Shown one piece after another: positions 3,248 to 19,688 of a DNA stretch of 21,167 nucleotides. The notes under the pieces are model-generated. The model saw only the letters and a program-made list of their open reading frames with translations, searched no databases and had not been told where the DNA came from. How positions within the stretch are numbered: the first letter of the stretch is position 1; each line of letters begins with the position of its first letter. Where the stretch lies: positions 1-21,167 of IMG/VR virus record IMGVR_UViG_3300032048_000022. The stretch is one strand, 5' to 3'. A program made the position numbers and the translations under genes. The stretch comes from a virus.

Positions 3248-4030
3248 TTAACTTATTTGTCCACCACCCAACGCGGCGAATCTCCTTTTATCTGCAGCTA
3301 ATTTTTCTAAATTTAGATGCTCTGTTTTCGGACTTGATGCAACTGGTGTTTTTATCTTAGTAGCTTTTAATGAATCTAATAAAGATCCAAAAACACCTTG
3401 AATTCCATCTACAAATCCAACGCTTCTCCAATTATCATATTCCCATGTAACAGTTACTTCTAATAAACCTTCACTTCCATTACCTAATTCAATAGCTGCA
3501 AGTTGTATAGGATATGCATTCTCTAACTTAACTGTATATCCGGGAATTATATCATTAGATGTAGATAACTGTTGTATAGTTACATCACTACAATAATCTC
3601 TTTTATAATATGCTTTAAAATGTTCATGTGTACTATCAATAATCATTTCTTGCCACATATCAAAATACTTTTTAATATAATAATCATTTGTTAATAAAAA
3701 TGTCATAGATACTTCATCTGTCATCATTGAATATGGTTTCTTTGTCATATGATGATTATGAGTAGCTTCAGTTGTAGTTATTCGTTTACCAGGAAGTGTA
3801 CAAGTTTGACATAGTAAAAACATATCTCTTGGGTCACTAATAAAATCTCCTATATGTATACCATCGCCAGATATTAAATTATTAAGTAATGTTGCAGGGT
3901 CAAACTTTAATAAGCTATTCATACCCTTTGAAGGATGAGAAACATATACTGCATATCTATTTCCACGTGCTACACCACCACGACGATTAATCGTTGACTT
4001 AATTGAATCTATACTTACTGGTAATGACAT
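3248..4030 (-). CDS. 54: Tail-tube-fold protein, probable baseplate tail-tube initiator (gp54-like)
   Basis: This is a 260-aa protein. The central and C-terminal parts show the gp19/gp54-type tube pattern: CTLPGKRITTTE (residues 77-88), MTFLLTNDYYIKKYFDMWQE (109-128) and, near residues 173-201, YPIQLAAIEL followed by EVTVTWEYDNW. The length is nearer to gp54 (320 aa) than to gp19 (163 aa). gp54 starts tube polymerisation on the hub next to the gp48 cap, which is encoded divergently here. A longer start at 4057 is possible, but ATG 4030 is preferred: AAGGAG lies ~8 nt upstream, and it overlaps the previous stop as TAATG. An atypical tail-tube protein is the main alternative. Confidence 0.6.
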   Translation of the reverse strand: MSLPVSIDSIKSTINRRGGVARGNRYAVYVSHPSKGMNSLLKFDPATLLNNLISGDGIHIGDFISDPRDMFLLCQTCTLPGKRITTTEATHNHHMTKKPYSMMTDEVSMTFLLTNDYYIKKYFDMWQEMIIDSTHEHFKAYYKRDYCSDVTIQQLSTSNDIIPGYTVKLENAYPIQLAAIELGNGSEGLLEVTVTWEYDNWRSVGFVDGIQGVFGSLLDSLKATKIKTPVASSPKTEHLNLEKLAADKRRFAALGGGQIS

Positions 4031-4611
4031 TAATATTGTCTCCTTGATGCAGCCCAAATATAACTTTCTGTTTTCTTCTTAAATTGGGCTGTTTGTAAAA
4101 ATATTGCTATGTTCCATTCAGCAGCATCTACCTTCATTATTTTTGAACCTACATGCTTCGTAAGATAATGCTTAAAACATGGTTTAAAGTATTTATATTT
4201 CTTAGCTGCTTTTAATAAATTATATGTAATTCTAAATCTAGTTGTTTTATCAAATTTTTGATTAGATGCAGCAGCATTTAAATTATCTAAAAATATAGCA
4301 CGAATTTTAGGTGGTAAATAATGTAAGTTAATACCAAAAAAACCACCTGGCGCAGGACCAACCATAATCGTTAAAGGAAACATATCATAGTATGGCAAAG
4401 TCATTTTTAACTTTGGATTATATGTATACATTATCATATCACCAATTATAGGTCTAGCTTTTGCTGTTAATCTATCATCTTTAAGAACATTCCTTCCTAA
4501 TGGTCCAAGCTCTTTTGCTTTTTTTTCAAACCATGCTGAAGCTTCTCTTGAACGAGCTGTTATTCCCTTACGGAATGCTTCTGATTCTAACTTATCGAAT
4601 AAACTGGCCAT
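4030..4611 (-). CDS. Conserved T4-like morphogenesis protein, 193 aa (possibly gp2-like DNA-end protector)
   Basis: This is a basic protein with a compact core at residues ~57-101 (IGDMIMYTYNPKLKMTLPYY, then MFPL, then FGINLHYLPPK). I recognise this as a widespread family in marine T4-like phages. In T4 the gene next to 4 on the same strand is 2, which fits a gp2-type role protecting DNA ends in the filled head, but T4 gp2 is longer (274 aa) and I see no decisive motif. The C-terminus is Lys/Arg/aromatic-rich. The ATG has an exact late promoter 5 nt upstream and no usable Shine-Dalgarno. Its stop overlaps the next gene's start by one base. Confidence 0.5.
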   Translation of the reverse strand: MASLFDKLESEAFRKGITARSREASAWFEKKAKELGPLGRNVLKDDRLTAKARPIIGDMIMYTYNPKLKMTLPYYDMFPLTIMVGPAPGGFFGINLHYLPPKIRAIFLDNLNAAASNQKFDKTTRFRITYNLLKAAKKYKYFKPCFKHYLTKHVGSKIMKVDAAEWNIAIFLQTAQFKKKTESYIWAASRRQY

Positions 4612-4616
4612 ACTTA

Positions 4617-4624
4617 TATTTATA
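4617..4624 (-). promoter_or_regulatory. T4-type late promoter TATAAATA before the 193-aa gene
   Basis: There is an exact match to the T4 late -10 element on the minus strand, followed by TAAGT and then the ATG at 4611. With the usual spacing the transcript would start on or next to the A of the ATG. It overlaps the stop codon of gp4. Confidence 0.55.
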
Positions 4625-5117
4625 TCTTTTTCTTAAGTGTTTTCCATATTCTACGACCTGTTTTTGTTTTACTTGCTTTAAACCCCATAGTCATTGTCTT
4701 AATACCCATAGCCTCAAGTTCTTTCTCAGTCCATATTTGGAATTCATAACCACGTTCATTACAAAATTTCTTAGCATACTTCCATTTAGAAACATTTTTC
4801 ATATAACCTAATGCTTCTTTTAATTGTTTTCTTTTGGGTGGTTTGGTTTGAGATAATGGTTTTATTTCAACTAAGAGAGTACGACCTGTGTCTGTTCTTA
4901 TCGTAAGGTCAACAAAATAACGATGCATCTTACGATCTGTTGCACATATATATGGTATAACGGTCTCTTCAGAGTTCCACCATTTAACCCATGATGCTTT
5001 GTCTAAATATCTAAACGCATTTCTCTCCCATAAGGACCTATAATGTATATAATTAAGGTCACCTTTATATTTTTCAGGGTGTTTTGGCTTCCAAGTACCA
5101 GAATATGTCTTTTTCAT
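4620..5117 (-). CDS. 4: Head completion nuclease gp4
   Basis: This is a 165-aa protein, close to the usual length for T4 gp4 (gp50/65). The N-terminus (YSGTWKPKHPEKYKGD, then YRSLWERNAFRYLD) and the middle block match the family as I know it. The PD-(D/E)XK nuclease residues of the TnsA-like fold are visible: E31 in LWERN, D70 in HRYFVDLT, and E84-I-K86 in LLVEIKP. A basic Trp/Lys helix (residues 107-118) and a basic C-terminus follow. The protein acts on filled heads so that neck and tail can attach. It is the first gene of the leftward block, divergent from gp48, with a late promoter 5 nt before its ATG and no Shine-Dalgarno. Confidence 0.85.
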   Translation of the reverse strand: MKKTYSGTWKPKHPEKYKGDLNYIHYRSLWERNAFRYLDKASWVKWWNSEETVIPYICATDRKMHRYFVDLTIRTDTGRTLLVEIKPLSQTKPPKRKQLKEALGYMKNVSKWKYAKKFCNERGYEFQIWTEKELEAMGIKTMTMGFKASKTKTGRRIWKTLKKKI

Positions 5118-5122
5118 ATAAC

Positions 5123-5130
5123 TATTTATA
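5123..5130 (-). promoter_or_regulatory. Leftward T4-type late promoter TATAAATA before gp4
   Basis: There is an exact minus-strand TATAAATA, then GTTAT, then ATG at 5117. The expected start of transcription coincides with the start codon. It forms one arm of the inverted repeat shared with the rightward promoter. Confidence 0.7.
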
Positions 5131-5138
5131 CTATTTCG

Positions 5139-5146
5139 TATAAATA
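5139..5146 (+). promoter_or_regulatory. Rightward T4-type late promoter TATAAATA before gp48
   Basis: There is an exact plus-strand TATAAATA. The expected start is near 5152, giving a ~21-nt leader that contains AAAGGAA ahead of the gp48 ATG at 5173. It would drive the whole rightward baseplate operon. Confidence 0.7.
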
Positions 5147-5172
5147 ACTATTATACGAACAAAGGAACAACT

Positions 5173-6339
5173 ATGAACGACGCTCAAAGAATGCAACAAG
5201 CAGGTGGAGTTAATGTACATGCTACTGGCACACTACCCGTTGAACATTGGAAATATCCAGAAACTGTAGGTAATGATACTAAATCAGATGATATAAATTT
5301 TAATAGCAATCAAACTAGTGAATATGCTATTAGACGTATGAATGAAATATCTGGTAATACTATTGAACCATTTATGTTATTTGAATTTATGAGAGTAGAT
5401 AATGATGAGTTTGGCCAAGGTACAGCTCAATTTGTTCAAGAAAAAGCAAAAGCAGCATGGGAAGGAAGTTATAAAGCTGGTTGGAATAATGTTGTAGATT
5501 ATGTTAAAGATAAAGGTGCTGCTGGAGAGGCAGCTATTGGCAATATAGAGGCAGAAAGAGTTGATTCTCTTCAAGACTCAACGGCTGGTAAGCTAGCCGA
5601 AGCTATATTCAATAAAATAAAAGAATGGGCTGAAAAAATTGGAACTATGGTAAATAGAAAATATATAGGTTCAGTTGCTTTATATATGCCTACAGATATT
5701 CAAATAAACGATCAGATGGTTTATAATGATGATTCAAGAAAAATGGGAGCTTTCGCAGAAACTTTATTTTCTAAAGATTATGCAGATGTATTTAATCCAG
5801 TAACATTAACAAGTCAAACAGCTTTAGCTGCAGCTGGTTATCTTGGAGGAAAATTTCTACCTGGTAGTAGTACTAGTATGATATCAGCTCTTGCTGGTGC
5901 TGGACTTGCTAGTGTAGTTCAAACAGAATTACAAAGAGGCAGTGGTAAGATTGCTAACCCTAATGAAATTTTATTATATAATTCAACTGCGTTAAGAACA
6001 TTTACATTTACTTGGACTATCTTACCAGATACACGACAAGAATCAGAACATGCAGCTGGTCTTATTAAAATGTTTAGAAAAGCTGCACATGCAAGAAAAG
6101 ATAATAAAATGATTATAACAGTACCTGATCATGTTATTATATCATTTCATGGAGCTGGAGAAAAACGTACAGAAATGATTCAATTGCCTCCTTGTGTTAT
6201 TGAAACTGTTGGTGTTATTTATAATCCAAATACATCTTCATTCTTTCATGAAAATAATGCACCTGTAGAAATTGGTTTAACTGTAGGACTTAAAGAAATG
6301 GCACCACTTTATGCACAAGATGTAGAGGAAGGATACTAA
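5173..6339 (+). CDS. 48: Baseplate tail-tube cap gp48
   Basis: This is a 388-aa protein; T4 gp48 is 364 aa. Family features visible are YMPTDIQINDQMVYNDDSRK (residues 171-190), the NPNEILLYNSTALRTFTFTW block (262-281), PDTRQESEHAAGLIKMFRKA (285-304), and a C-terminal region with NPNTSSFFHENNAPVEIGL. gp48 caps the gp27 hub and, with gp54, is the platform for tube assembly. A Gly/Ala-rich hydrophobic stretch (~216-250) lies between the two conserved halves and may bury in the hub. The start is supported by AAAGGAAC 7 nt upstream. It is the first gene of the rightward operon. Confidence 0.8.
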   Translation: MNDAQRMQQAGGVNVHATGTLPVEHWKYPETVGNDTKSDDINFNSNQTSEYAIRRMNEISGNTIEPFMLFEFMRVDNDEFGQGTAQFVQEKAKAAWEGSYKAGWNNVVDYVKDKGAAGEAAIGNIEAERVDSLQDSTAGKLAEAIFNKIKEWAEKIGTMVNRKYIGSVALYMPTDIQINDQMVYNDDSRKMGAFAETLFSKDYADVFNPVTLTSQTALAAAGYLGGKFLPGSSTSMISALAGAGLASVVQTELQRGSGKIANPNEILLYNSTALRTFTFTWTILPDTRQESEHAAGLIKMFRKAAHARKDNKMIITVPDHVIISFHGAGEKRTEMIQLPPCVIETVGVIYNPNTSSFFHENNAPVEIGLTVGLKEMAPLYAQDVEEGY

Positions 6340-6340
6340 T

Positions 6341-7054
6341 ATGTATTTTAAAAATATACAAAATATAACAATTGATGTAGATGGTTCTGGTAATTTCGAT
6401 AGATTAAAAAATTTAACAGCAAAAGCTAAGGTTTCAGACGAATTAATTAATAATGCTGGTTTTTATCAGACTATAGAAATTATTGATGGTGAAAGACCAG
6501 ACCATTTAAGCCAACGATTATATGGTTCACCACAATATCATTGGACATTTTTATTACTTAATCCTCAAATAAAAAATATATGGGATGATTGGCCAATGAA
6601 ATATTCCCAATTAGTAGAGTATTGTACAGAAAAATATCAATACCTTGCTGGTGATACTGATGATGACCTAAATGATAAATTTATTTTAGGTGAAACAGTC
6701 ACTGGTTCTATATCAAATGCAAATGGTATTCTTAAAGAAATACACGTTAACATGGGTTACCTTGTTATTGAAAAAACATCAGGCACATTTACTATAACTG
6801 GCGAAACTATACAAGGTGTTAATTCTCAAGATTCAGCTGCATGTAATTTTATTAAATCACAAGCTTATGCTCCTCATCATCATGTTGATGATTCAACTGA
6901 AGAATGGGTACCAAGACGTTTAGCTGGTACAACTGCATTCACTTACATCGATTATGAGTCTGCTGTAACAGAACAAAATAGAAATTTAAAAATAATAAAG
7001 CCTCACAATATAAAGGAAGTTGCACGCAAATTTATTAATGAAATGGGTGCATAA
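6341..7054 (+). CDS. 53: Baseplate wedge subunit gp53 with an inserted beta module
   Basis: This is a 237-aa protein; T4 gp53 is 196 aa. The LysM-like segment is clear: IDGERPDHLSQRLYGSPQYH (residues 48-67), then W-T-F-LLLNP and WDDWPM. The C-terminal helix NRNLKIIKPHNIKEVARKFI (213-232) matches the T4 end, which links gp53 to the wedge core. Between them, residues ~113-170 (FILGETVTGSISNANGI, then GTFTITGETIQG) form an insertion of the GExVTG type common in marine phage structural proteins. This explains the extra length. It lies 1 nt after gp48, and its stop overlaps the next ATG (TAATG). Confidence 0.85.
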   Translation: MYFKNIQNITIDVDGSGNFDRLKNLTAKAKVSDELINNAGFYQTIEIIDGERPDHLSQRLYGSPQYHWTFLLLNPQIKNIWDDWPMKYSQLVEYCTEKYQYLAGDTDDDLNDKFILGETVTGSISNANGILKEIHVNMGYLVIEKTSGTFTITGETIQGVNSQDSAACNFIKSQAYAPHHHVDDSTEEWVPRRLAGTTAFTYIDYESAVTEQNRNLKIIKPHNIKEVARKFINEMGA

Positions 7055-8238
7055 TGTTTAAAATAGATAATTTTGAAGTTTATATAGATAATACAAATAT
7101 AAGCTCAATGTGTACATCAATGTCATTATATGAAAGTATTCATGGTCATATTAAAGGAACTATACATGTTGAAGACAAACTTAATTTCTTTGACCTCTTT
7201 TTTAGAGGATTAGCTTTAACTTCTATTAAACTAAGTTATAGTTATATGGATGTTCCAACAGAAATAGTTTTATATGTTGATGGTGTTACTGACCAAGTTA
7301 TTAGTAAACAAGGTAAATCATATAATATTAATTTAGTTTCAATAAATAATTTAAATGAATCTACAGCACGAATTTGTAATTCTTATACTGGAACATCAAA
7401 TGATATACTTGCAGCTTTATGGCAAGAAACTCATGGTCCAAAAGTTATATTAGCACTTGATTCTGAAACAACTTCTAAAGGAAAATATATTGTACCTAAT
7501 ATTTCTGCAAAAAATGCTATAAGAAATGTGGTGTTAAGTGCATATGATAAAAATGATACTCCAATGTTTTTATATCAAAGATTAATAGATCAAAACGTAA
7601 CACGATTTACATCTATACATACTATGCAAAATAATAAATTTTTGAGTGAGCATTATGAGAATTTTCATATACATTCTGCTGAAATAACTAAACAGGGTGT
7701 TACTGAGGTTTCATCAACTATAGGGTCTACTTCATCATTTACTATGCCAGATTATAATAAAAATTTTATAACAAAATTATCAGGCGGTATGTGGGGACAA
7801 AAAATTACAGAGGTTGCTATTTCTGAAACAACAAATAAAGTTCTTCCACCAATGGAAACAACTGATGTTGAAATAACAAGAATGAAACTTAGTAAAAATT
7901 TATATAGTAATATTGAAAAAGCAGATGGACCAGCTGGACAAATAACAAGCTATCCACAAAAATCATTATTTGACCCAGGAAGTGTAGTATCTAAAGAGAT
8001 ATTAGTAAATATGAAGTATAGATTATTTAATACAACATTAATGGCCACTAATGTTGTAGCTATTCCAGGTATAGGATGTGGAATGGTTGTTAATGTTGCA
8101 CAAGGTGGAGGTCAAGTATCAATAACAAAAACGGATGGAACATATTTAATTGCTAATATAAATCATAGGTATATTATGGAAGATGGAGCGATGCAATATT
8201 CACAAAATATAGGATTAGTAAGAGAAGGTAAAGAATAA
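7054..8238 (+). CDS. 27: Baseplate central hub protein gp27-like
   Basis: This is a 394-aa protein; T4 gp27 is 391 aa. It opens with the usual hub-domain start (FKIDNFEVYIDNTNISSM, then HGHIKGTIHVEDKLNFFDLF), continues with a beta-rich domain containing YNINLVSI, and ends with a barrel-like region where FNTTLMATNVVAIPGIGCGM and YLIANINHRYIMEDGAMQYS resemble gp27/gpD hub proteins. The trimeric gp27 hub joins the tube (via gp48/gp54) to the spike gp5, whose gene follows with a one-base overlap. The call rests on length, pattern and position directly before gp5. Sequence similarity to T4 itself looks low. Confidence 0.7.
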   Translation: MFKIDNFEVYIDNTNISSMCTSMSLYESIHGHIKGTIHVEDKLNFFDLFFRGLALTSIKLSYSYMDVPTEIVLYVDGVTDQVISKQGKSYNINLVSINNLNESTARICNSYTGTSNDILAALWQETHGPKVILALDSETTSKGKYIVPNISAKNAIRNVVLSAYDKNDTPMFLYQRLIDQNVTRFTSIHTMQNNKFLSEHYENFHIHSAEITKQGVTEVSSTIGSTSSFTMPDYNKNFITKLSGGMWGQKITEVAISETTNKVLPPMETTDVEITRMKLSKNLYSNIEKADGPAGQITSYPQKSLFDPGSVVSKEILVNMKYRLFNTTLMATNVVAIPGIGCGMVVNVAQGGGQVSITKTDGTYLIANINHRYIMEDGAMQYSQNIGLVREGKE

Positions 8239-9125
8239 TGTTATTTGGAATAGTAGAAAATGTAACAGACCCTTTAAAACTTGGAAGAGTTAGAGTTCGT
8301 GTATATGGGTCACATGATAATAGACAAGGTGATGAGTATAATATAAAAGAAAAAGATCTTGCATGGTCAGAAGTTATGATGCCTTCAAATACACCAGCTA
8401 AAAGTGGTGTAGGACATTCAGTAAATTTATTAGTTGGTACATTAGTTTGTGGTATGTTTAGAGACCCAGCGCAACAAGAGTTTATGGTTATGGGAACTCT
8501 TCCTACTAAGACCGATGGTGCAGAAGATAATAATATACGAGTAAGAGCTGGTCCAGATCCACATGGAGATGAACCTATTGGTGAATATCAACCAGCAAGT
8601 TGTTATGCTCCAGAATATCCATATAATAATGTATTTGAAACAGAAAGTGGTCATCTTAAAGAGTATGATGATACAAAGGGACATGAACGTATAACAGAAA
8701 GACATATGAGTGGTACTCAATATGAGATACAGCCTGATGGCACAAAGAATGAAAGAATTGTAAGAGATAAATATTGTTTAGTTGTAGGTCAAGATACTCT
8801 TGAAGTATTTGGTAATATTAGAATTATTGTTAGTGGTCAAGCAGATATTGCAGTAGCAAAAGATGTAAACCTTGCTGTTGGTGGTAACCTTACTGCTAAT
8901 ATTACTGGTGATATGACAGCTAATATTACTGGAACAACTTCATTAATAGGTGTTGATAATATAAAAATAGATGTAACTGGTAGTGGTAAAAAAATTACAT
9001 TAGATGGTGATGTTGATGTAACTGGTAATTTAAGATTAACTGCAGAAGGTATTACACTTAATACTCATACACATGGACAAAATAATGTTGACCAGCCAAA
9101 TACTGCTGGACCTAACGCTAATTAG
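8238..9125 (+). CDS. 5: Baseplate central spike gp5 without lysozyme domain
   Basis: This is a 295-aa protein; T4 gp5 is 575 aa. An N-terminal OB-fold runs from MLFGIVENVTDPLKLGRVRV to about residue 92 (FMVMGTLP). The middle YPYNNVFETESGHLKEYDDT (127-146), then GHERI and PDGTKN, is the conserved entry to the spike beta-helix. Residues ~175-275 are short repeating strands (NLTANITGDMTANITG). The T4 lysozyme domain that normally sits between OB-fold and beta-helix is missing, with only ~35 residues in its place. The tip contains N275-T-H-T-H-G280, a possible HxH metal-binding motif like those in P2/Mu-type spikes. The trimer sits under the gp27 hub and pierces the cell envelope. The RBS is AGAAGG in the end of the previous gene. 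Confidence 0.88.
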   Translation: MLFGIVENVTDPLKLGRVRVRVYGSHDNRQGDEYNIKEKDLAWSEVMMPSNTPAKSGVGHSVNLLVGTLVCGMFRDPAQQEFMVMGTLPTKTDGAEDNNIRVRAGPDPHGDEPIGEYQPASCYAPEYPYNNVFETESGHLKEYDDTKGHERITERHMSGTQYEIQPDGTKNERIVRDKYCLVVGQDTLEVFGNIRIIVSGQADIAVAKDVNLAVGGNLTANITGDMTANITGTTSLIGVDNIKIDVTGSGKKITLDGDVDVTGNLRLTAEGITLNTHTHGQNNVDQPNTAGPNAN

Positions 9126-9133
9126 TATAAATA
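9126..9133 (+). promoter_or_regulatory. T4-type late promoter TATAAATA before gp25
   Basis: An exact TATAAATA begins directly after the gp5 stop codon. Six nucleotides (AGATAT) separate it from the gp25 ATG at 9140, so the expected transcript starts at or one base before the start codon. No good Shine-Dalgarno lies between. Confidence 0.65.
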
Positions 9134-9139
9134 AGATAT

Positions 9140-9538
9140 ATGGCACAGATAGCACGACAAGAAACGTATAAAGATTTAGATTTTACTTTTAAGCAAAATC
9201 CTAATACCAATGATGTTGGAATAAAGAAAGATAATGCTTCAATAATTCAAAGTGTCTTAAATATATTAAGAACGAATCATGGAGAAAGACCATTTAATTG
9301 GAACTTTGGTGCTAATTTAAGGTCATACCTATTTGAGAATATGACTCGAATAACAGCAGCAAGTATGTCTACTTCTATTAATACTGCTTTAGAAAATTGG
9401 GAACCAAGAATAGCAGTATTAAATACAAACATTCAAGCTAAGGCTGATGAAAATGAAGTGTATATCACAGTAACCGGTAGAGTTATATCAAGCAATGAAA
9501 TAGTAGATATATCAACCACAATAGAGAGATTACGATAA
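9140..9538 (+). CDS. 25: Baseplate wedge subunit gp25
   Basis: This 132-aa protein has exactly the length of T4 gp25. The GPW/gp25 family core is visible: GERPFNWNFGANLRSYLFEN (residues 48-67) and ENWEPRI (85-91), with the conserved EPR. In contractile systems gp25 ties the inner baseplate ring (gp6/gp7) to the sheath initiator layer. A late promoter overlaps its immediate upstream region. Its last base is the first of the gp6 ATG (ATAATG). Confidence 0.93.
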   Translation: MAQIARQETYKDLDFTFKQNPNTNDVGIKKDNASIIQSVLNILRTNHGERPFNWNFGANLRSYLFENMTRITAASMSTSINTALENWEPRIAVLNTNIQAKADENEVYITVTGRVISSNEIVDISTTIERLR

Positions 9539-11418: not shown

Positions 11419-12623
11419 TGGCAAGTGGACTTGGTAAATATAATATATCATCGTATATAGATGATTTAATACCTGAACATGTACAGTCTTTATATCCAGA
11501 CCTCGTTAGCTTTATTAAGATATATGCTCTTTATCTAGAACGTTCAAATAAATCTGGATTCTATTTAAATTCACTTGATATCCAAAGAGATATTGATTTT
11601 GTAGAAGATAGTCTACTTACAGAACTCCAAAATGAAATTGGTATTGCAGTACCAAGAGATTTTGCTGCAGACCCAAGAATGTTTTATAAGAGGCTTATTG
11701 AATTTTATAGAAGTAGAGGTACACCAGAATCTATAACATCATTCTTTAGAATGATATATGATGATGATGTAGAAACATATTTTCCATTTGTAGATTTACT
11801 TGAACCATCAGATGGAGATTGGACAGACCAAACAGCTGATATTATAGCAAACCAAGCTAACTATACACCTTGGAACGTATTCACAATTAGTGGAACACCA
11901 ACAGTAGTTAGTGGAAGTGCTGATTCAGGTAATGCAGCATTTTTTGATGATGACGTAGTATTTGTTAATGATGTATATAAGACACCAACCACAGATTACG
12001 TTGAGGAAGTATATTCAGAATCAAATACAACTAAATATAGATTAACATTTACATCAGCATTGTCAAACGCTGATGTGGTTAAGACATATCCTAAAGGTTT
12101 ATTTACAACTGTAAATGGTTTCTTATCAAATAAGAAGTACTTACAAGACTCTTACTATTATCAAAAGTTTTCATACGTACTACGTACAGGTAAGAATGTA
12201 GCTGATTGGAAGAATGCATTTACAAGATTAATTCACCCAGCTGGGTTTATATTCTTTGGTGAAGTATCAATATTTATTGAACTACTTACATCAACAAATG
12301 ACCAAGCACAATGGGGTTGGTTACCAGCAGCTGGTAAGATTAATCTTACTTTAGGTGAATATCAAATTGGTCCAGTAAGTTTTAATAGTCATATATTAGA
12401 AAAGAGTTATACACACATACCATTTACTACAACTGGAACTTATAATATTGGTTCAGGTGGCGGCAGAATAGGTATGTGGAACCATTGGGATAACATGAAG
12501 TTCAGATATTTAGGCCACAATAGTGATTTTGATCGATATACGTTTGAAGATGTTATAAATAACAATATAGATTTACAATTCGGATTGGGTGGAGCAAGTT
12601 CACTCGTACAACATACCCCTTAG
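11418..12623 (+). CDS. Baseplate wedge protein, gp7-like (P2 gpI-type position)
   Basis: This is a 401-aa protein, far shorter than T4 gp7 (1032 aa). It starts with a helical segment (IPEHVQSLYPDLVSFIKIYA, residues 18-37), then FYKRLIEFYRSRGTPESITS (89-108), which resembles the RxxGT helix of tail protein I/gp7. A beta insert follows, and then LQDSYYYQKFSYVLRTGKN with LIHPAGFIFFGEV (242-283). The position between gp6 and gp8 is that of gp7, so it probably completes the gp6-gp7 wedge triplex while lacking the peripheral T4 domains. I recognise the family from marine T4-like phages but do not know an assigned number for it. Confidence 0.6.
   Translation: MASGLGKYNISSYIDDLIPEHVQSLYPDLVSFIKIYALYLERSNKSGFYLNSLDIQRDIDFVEDSLLTELQNEIGIAVPRDFAADPRMFYKRLIEFYRSRGTPESITSFFRMIYDDDVETYFPFVDLLEPSDGDWTDQTADIIANQANYTPWNVFTISGTPTVVSGSADSGNAAFFDDDVVFVNDVYKTPTTDYVEEVYSESNTTKYRLTFTSALSNADVVKTYPKGLFTTVNGFLSNKKYLQDSYYYQKFSYVLRTGKNVADWKNAFTRLIHPAGFIFFGEVSIFIELLTSTNDQAQWGWLPAAGKINLTLGEYQIGPVSFNSHILEKSYTHIPFTTTGTYNIGSGGGRIGMWNHWDNMKFRYLGHNSDFDRYTFEDVINNNIDLQFGLGGASSLVQHTP
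12554..12561 (+). promoter_or_regulatory. Possible internal late promoter TATAAATA upstream of gp8
   Basis: There is an exact TATAAATA within the end of the gp7-like gene, 88 nt before the gp8 ATG. It encodes ordinary codons (VINNN region), and an all-A/T octamer is expected several times by chance in such AT-rich DNA, so support is weak. Confidence 0.25.
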
Positions 12624-19494: not shown

Positions 19495-19688
19495 TGCATA
19501 TACCAGTTAAAGGACATAATGATTTAGTAAGAGACACAAAGTCAGGAGCTATTATAAATATTGGAAGTGAAGGTGAAATGTATTCAGCTGCTAGAGCTAA
19601 AGGAAAAGCCGATGCAGAGAGATTAGATAAAGTAGAACAAGACGTATCAGAAATTAAAATGATGCTTCAAACATTAATAGAGAGATAA
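19494..19688 (+). CDS. Small conserved phage protein, 64 aa
   Basis: The sequence begins MHIPVKGHNDLVRDTKSGAI, then INIGSEGEMYSAAR, and ends in a short coiled coil (ERLDKVEQDVSEIKMMLQTL). I recognise this VKGHxxLVRDxxSGAIIN pattern as a recurring small protein in the structural regions of marine T4-like phages. Its function is unknown to me. It overlaps the 86-aa gene by one base (TAATG) and is 1 nt from the tail-fibre start, so it is co-translated with them. The C-terminal coiled coil could pair with the one in the preceding protein. Confidence 0.75.
   Translation: MHIPVKGHNDLVRDTKSGAIINIGSEGEMYSAARAKGKADAERLDKVEQDVSEIKMMLQTLIER

Follow-up and report, generated by a model that had tools for sequence, protein, structure and literature searches.

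In a group of marine bacteriophages, T4-type late promoters are positioned such that some late genes are very probably made from leaderless mRNAs beginning with 5'-AUG, as judged from sequence comparison. The stretch of DNA analysed (hereafter the window) comprises 21,167 nt of the IMG/VR virus record IMGVR_UViG_3300032048_000022. Since the late promoter box TATAAATA lies 5 or 6 bases before some start codons, the mRNA should begin at the start codon. gp55, acting together with gp33 and the clamp, would recognise these promoters; the gp55-RNA polymerase would open the box and initiate on the A six bases further on, the first base of the start codon. The resulting mRNA would start with 5'-AUG, with no leader and no Shine-Dalgarno (SD) sequence, and the ribosome would presumably bind the 5'-terminal AUG directly. 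As gp48 and other late genes keep a leader and an SD, one promoter type would give rise to two classes of late mRNA. A likely gain is compaction, with promoters fitting over upstream stop codons; late in infection, these mRNAs might also be freed from reliance on the SD pathway, although this is speculation. Homologues of gp55 and gp33 were found in the related record G001 and in HTVC008M, and a gp33 homologue also in G002 (tblastn); the window is too short to show either protein. The gp33 homologue of G001 matches Pfam family PF16805, and the gp55-like stretch of G001 (157 aa) matched no Pfam family.

The window carries a T4-like structural gene block, in which gp4, gp2, the tail tube, the hub, gp48, gp53, gp5, gp25, gp6 and gp8 were recognised with PHROG (T4 gene numbers were assigned by interpreting the PHROG descriptions). 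By the same assignments, the genes downstream of the boxes (gp4, gp2, gp25 and gp48) are late head or tail genes. Exact copies of TATAAATA had been reported in the initial annotation at 5, 5 and 6 nt ahead of the ATG of gp4, a 193-aa gene (here recognised as gp2) and gp25, and all three were located there. The features are as follows:

5123..5130, minus strand: late promoter box TATAAATA of gp4, 5 nt ahead of the ATG
5115..5117, minus strand: start codon of gp4; predicted +1 is the A at 5117, from the geometry of the T4 octamer
4620..5117, minus strand: gp4, head closure/completion protein (PHROG 218, E 2.3e-47)
4617..4624, minus strand: late promoter box TATAAATA of gp2, 5 nt ahead of the ATG at 4611
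4030..4611, minus strand: gp2 (193 aa), DNA end protector (PHROG 429, E 4.2e-51)
9126..9133, plus strand: late promoter box TATAAATA of gp25, 6 nt ahead of the ATG at 9140
9140..9538, plus strand: gp25, baseplate wedge subunit (PHROG 261, E 1.9e-41)
5139..5146, plus strand: divergent late promoter box of gp48, 26 nt ahead of the ATG; leadered internal contrast
5162..5166, plus strand: Shine-Dalgarno sequence AAGGA of gp48, duplex -5.6 kcal/mol
5173..6339, plus strand: gp48, baseplate tail tube cap, a leadered late gene (PHROG 230, E 1e-33)

The gp2 box overlaps the stop codon of gp4 (4620-4622), and the gp25 box starts directly behind the stop codon of gp5. gp4 is predicted to be the leaderless first gene of a leftward transcript, and gp2 and gp25 are also predicted to be leaderless. 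The fourth promoter-placed octamer, that of gp48, is divergent from the gp4 box. The other four of the eight copies of the octamer in the window are intragenic (4190-4197, 6216-6223, 12554-12561 and 19553-19560); a count of 8 was reached by 14 of 100 shuffles, which bears out the earlier caution that the octamer by itself may recur by chance. The gp48 promoter lies within an inverted repeat, CGTATAA..TTATACG (window positions 5137-5157). Relatives often carry CGTTATA..TATAACG at this promoter, as if the two arms had changed together (compared by eye). An Rfam scan of the window gave no hits.

The strength of the SD was expressed as the energy of the duplex with the 3' end of 16S rRNA. The values for gp4, gp2 and gp25 in the window were 0.4, -0.9 and -1.5 kcal/mol, in agreement with the initial annotation, which had described all three as lacking a good SD and their neighbours as having one. 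The second part of that description was correct for most neighbours (hub, gp48, gp53, gp5, gp8 and others, -4.2 to -8.2 kcal/mol) and incorrect for the small downstream genes sp86 (-2.4 kcal/mol) and v64 (+1.8 kcal/mol), with gp6 being weak (-3.5 kcal/mol); sp86, v64 and gp6 begin on or beside the preceding stop codon. The -0.6 kcal/mol obtained for gp19 comes from a TTG start that is itself probably wrong. In the whole-genome set, a duplex of -4 kcal/mol or better was found for 54 of 72 leadered genes vs 3 of 44 leaderless candidates, and the SD-like stretch upstream of these three predicted leaderless starts counts against the proposal.

Relatives were collected from two IMG/VR scans (160 loci). 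Upstream regions were used when the match started by residue 12, a start codon was found within 30 nt and 40 nt of upstream sequence were present, and identical upstreams were merged (for gp48, 13 loci gave 7 unique upstreams). TATAAATA was found exactly 5 nt before the ATG of gp4 in 42/42 unique upstreams, none of which has an SD; the bases of the box are invariant and all five spacer positions vary. For gp25, the box is at 6 nt in 36 and at 5 nt in 5 of 43 unique upstreams, the remaining two having at 5 nt a box that differs in one base; an SD-like tetramer was counted in 7 of the 43. The gp48 box is at 26-33 nt, with an SD present, in all seven unique upstreams. When the 348 unique octamer contexts of all loci were taken together, the ATG was at a distance (d) of 5 nt in 83 and of 6 nt in 46, and never at d=4 or d=7. 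The leadered class accounts for secondary peaks at 23-28 nt, and further peaks were seen at 9 nt (30 contexts) and 35 nt (28 contexts).

The spacing was also scanned genome-wide, as the initial annotation had proposed. Larger records were scanned in pieces, ATG-ORFs of 40 or more aa were considered (window test), and 55 permuted octamers were used as the control. Three ATG-ORFs in the window lie at d=5/6 vs 0.05 expected, consistent with the earlier claim that the shared spacing is hard to obtain by chance. The corresponding values were 7 vs 0.48 for G001 (140.5 kb), 9 vs 0.40 for G002 (94 kb), 5 vs 0.21 for HTVC008M, 3 vs 0.22 for its relative G005, 2 vs 0.35 for Mosig, 2 vs 0.19 for Melnitz and 1 vs 0.05 for C48C1; T4 and Syn9 gave 0 (0.43 and 0.14 expected). 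The motif ATAAATA, which corresponds to the NATAAATA box that passages of PMC2984593 report for S-PM2, was found at exactly 5 nt in 9 cases in HTVC008M, 8 in G005, 7 in Mosig and 3 in Melnitz, and at 6 nt in none of these four. With this motif the peak at 5 was sharper; G001 had 6 cases at 5 nt and 2 at 6 nt, and G002 had 7 and 2, the enrichment in Melnitz alone was weak (P 0.013) and no case was found in Syn9 or T4. A sharp excess at 5 nt is thus present in two records of the window clade, in HTVC008M and its relative G005, in Mosig and, weakly, in Melnitz, pelagiphage isolates being among them. A signal general to T4-like phages was ruled out by its absence from T4 and Syn9, and whole-record pattern counts for P-SSM2, S-PM2, ACG-2014a and RHph_I46 were not above the reversed control.

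The window, C48C1 and nine other records of the clade or of pelagi- and methylophages (related clade records included) yielded 54 box-adjacent cases; by clustering, these represent 29 protein families, and 10 families recur in at least two records. A spacing of exactly 5 nt is shared by the gp2 genes of the window, HTVC008M, G005, Mosig and Melnitz; the tail tube genes of G001, G005 and Mosig and the genes for a CHASE2-cyclase protein in G001, G002 and Melnitz also have the box at 5 nt. The gp25 box of HTVC008M is at 5 nt. Among 38 unique upstreams of HTVC008M-type gp25 (62/80 loci; near-duplicates and some weaker matches were dropped by eye), NATAAATA is at 5 nt in 15, 6 nt in 14, 7 nt in 1, 8 nt in 7 and 9 nt in 1; the distance is 8 nt in Mosig and 18 nt, with an SD and hence leadered, in Melnitz. 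A single case was found in C48C1, which by gp4 is the closest of the named relatives; its gp4 is leadered (29 nt) without an SD.

The expected position of +1 was derived from T4, for which passages of PMC2988020 place the first T of the box at -13; the box therefore occupies -13 to -6, and +1 falls six bases past its end. At d=5, this base is the A of the ATG. As a sign that does not depend on start codons, an A is found at the sixth base after the box in 44 of 54 leadered, SD-bearing late genes of six marine records and in 15 of 23 leadered cases in T4 (whole genomes were used for this count; the pooled clade set, dominated by gp48, was uninformative). The start codons found at the box were ATG in 44 cases vs 3.5 expected, and GTG or TTG in none vs 2.1 expected; for E. 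coli, passages of PMC9031893 describe leaderless translation as starting at AUG, with other codons far less efficient. The base before the ATG is a pyrimidine in 42/44 leaderless candidates vs 196/489 SD-led genes (Fisher 8e-14). Transcription usually starts with a pyrimidine at -1 and a purine at +1, and this fit supports +1 on the A. From the conservation, the A at offset 6, the exclusive use of ATG and the pyrimidine at -1, we infer that +1 lies on the A of the ATG, in keeping with the initial annotation, which had predicted a start on or next to the start codon.

Very short leaders of 1-4 nt, in place of strictly leaderless RNAs, are unlikely as a general account, the case for them coming from gp25. 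In the window clade this gene is mostly at 6 nt (the 36 of 43 upstreams above), for which the strict T4 geometry would put +1 on the T just before the ATG; transcription may start at the A of the ATG or at the A two bases upstream. As 9 of the 38 HTVC008M-type upstreams have the box at 7-9 nt, and Mosig has it at 8 nt, gp25 seems to tolerate a leader as long as about 3-4 nt. Against short leaders elsewhere, d=5 dominates (40/44 leaderless candidates), HTVC008M, G005, Mosig and Melnitz use only 5 of the two spacings 5 and 6, and the pyrimidine ahead of the ATG is nearly constant.

The junction of gp4 and gp2 was compared among loci carrying both genes, with identical junctions merged. In 41/41 unique junctions TATAAATA is followed, after 5 nt (40 junctions) or 6 nt (1 junction), by ATG. 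The ORF opening there is gp2 in 2 junctions, a mini-ORF of 6-14 aa in 9 and a gene of 62-64 aa in 30; gp2 itself opens at the box in 7 of 38 unique gp2 upstreams. When displaced, gp2 usually has an SD and often starts with GTG. Its duplex energy is -6.4 kcal/mol in all 30 small-gene junctions and -4.2 kcal/mol or better in 6 of the 9 mini-ORF junctions, the other three ranging from +0.2 to -2.9 kcal/mol. These patterns indicate that at this junction the SD is missing precisely where the box adjoins, and that the ATG at the box is kept whatever gene opens there.

Most relatives carry the conserved gene of 62-64 aa (..GKLELSLRILGNEIIGF..) inserted between gp4 and gp2 (the G001 copy is at L180:18856-19047); it is absent from the window and had no match in PHROG or Pfam. 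Mini-ORFs of 6-8 aa at the leaderless position have a stop codon overlapping the start of gp2 (junctions L118, L016, L024, L060 and others), and it is possible that they are leaderless leader peptides coupling to gp2. A regulon of leaderless mini-ORFs beyond this junction was unconvincing (6 cases, of which Syn9 has one, vs about 2.2 expected over the nine genomes scanned).

Translational coupling might instead allow the genes to be expressed mainly from upstream read-through transcripts, the near box being a minor promoter or one that serves downstream genes. gp2 and gp25 do start 8 and 14 nt past the upstream stop codon, and several SD-less neighbours begin on the preceding stop. We regard this as improbable, since gp4 has no co-oriented upstream gene in the window (the divergent gp48 starts 55 bp away) and coupling leaves the one-base-sharp spacing, the missing GTG and TTG starts and the pyrimidine at -1 unexplained. 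It is less probable still, and by a clear step, that the box, being AT-rich and close to the start codon, is a translation element (an A/U-rich ribosome or S1 site) and no promoter: the same box is found 17-30 nt before SD-bearing late genes (in T4, 20 vs 2.6 expected), it is the known T4 late promoter (passages of PMC2988020), gp55 and gp33 homologues are encoded by relatives, and the spacing does not appear when AT-rich octamers are permuted. Chance in AT-rich DNA can be dismissed: the octamer count of the window is ordinary, but the permuted-octamer controls, the conservation, the genome-wide enrichment and the retention at the junction refute it.

The proposed leaderless class shares with the T4 late promoters (gp55/gp33/gp45) the TATAAATA box at -13 to -6, the preference for an A start and the head and tail genes served. 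In T4, however, the 25 octamers that have a called ORF starting no more than 45 nt downstream sit 13-34 nt before that start, mostly with an SD, and none is at 4-12 nt. The cyanophage late promoters NATAAATA (S-PM2, Syn9; Kyanoviridae) have the same box in related phages (passages of PMC2984593), but Syn9 has no case at 5-6 nt and no excess, and matches at 4-7 nt in P-SSM2, S-PM2 and ACG-2014a are not above the reversed control. In Deinococcus-Thermus, a -10 motif a few bp from the ATG gives leaderless mRNA with a spacing requirement; there, a host sigma factor and cellular genes are involved rather than a phage late sigma (passages of PMC12340547). Lambda cI and other leaderless mRNAs also use a 5'-AUG without an SD, and E. 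coli uORFs with a 5'-terminal AUG before an SD-bearing gene (passages of PMC4965119) resemble the mini-ORF layout between gp4 and gp2; unlike the genes considered here, these are isolated cases with host promoters and no late structural class.

No description of leaderless mRNAs from T4-type late promoters was found in the literature searched, the Syn9 transcriptome being outside its coverage; the new element would be the proposed joining of T4 late promoters to leaderless translation. For pelagimyophages, prediction of late promoters by cyanophage rules was unsuccessful according to passages of PMC7029224, perhaps because the boxes touch the start codon. For Melnitz, 15 late promoters were predicted from TATAAAT (PMC9004378); in the passages of that article consulted, leaderless mRNAs are undiscussed and the word 'leaderless' occurs once, in the title of a reference.

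T4 is the textbook late system, and those of its late genes that were considered here carry leaders long enough to hold a ribosome site. If marine relatives start their RNA on the AUG, the sigma-like gp55 system would have been re-aimed at leaderless translation. This might improve start-codon calls and make phages of streamlined hosts a plentiful source of testable cases of leaderless translation; the divergent gp4/gp48 pair could serve as a test construct as it stands. More tentatively, a marine T4-like lineage (the window clade plus SAR11/OM43 isolates) may use one promoter to divide its late regulon between a leadered and a leaderless class, with the 5'-AUG position selected even as the gene changes; such a split could set protein ratios, or sustain some virion proteins when the state of the ribosomes late in infection favours leaderless mRNAs.

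A protein with CHASE2 and adenylate/guanylate cyclase domains is encoded behind a leaderless-type late promoter at L176:16170-18008 (minus strand) and L312:14825-16873 (plus strand), and both the window clade and Melnitz have it in this arrangement; it is possible that the phage CHASE2-cyclase produces a cyclic-nucleotide signal late in infection. G001 carries a permuted tmRNA gene at L180:3710-4034 with the tag GNQSDYLLAA, the only one detected when seven of the eight G001 pieces were scanned for tRNA and tmRNA genes (the 543-base L183 was omitted). The permuted tmRNA and the CHASE2-cyclase shared with Melnitz offer only hints as to the host of the window clade. A CsgF-like curli protein is encoded 5 nt behind a late box in HTVC008M and G005 (L184:7562-8035 and L331:4525-4998).
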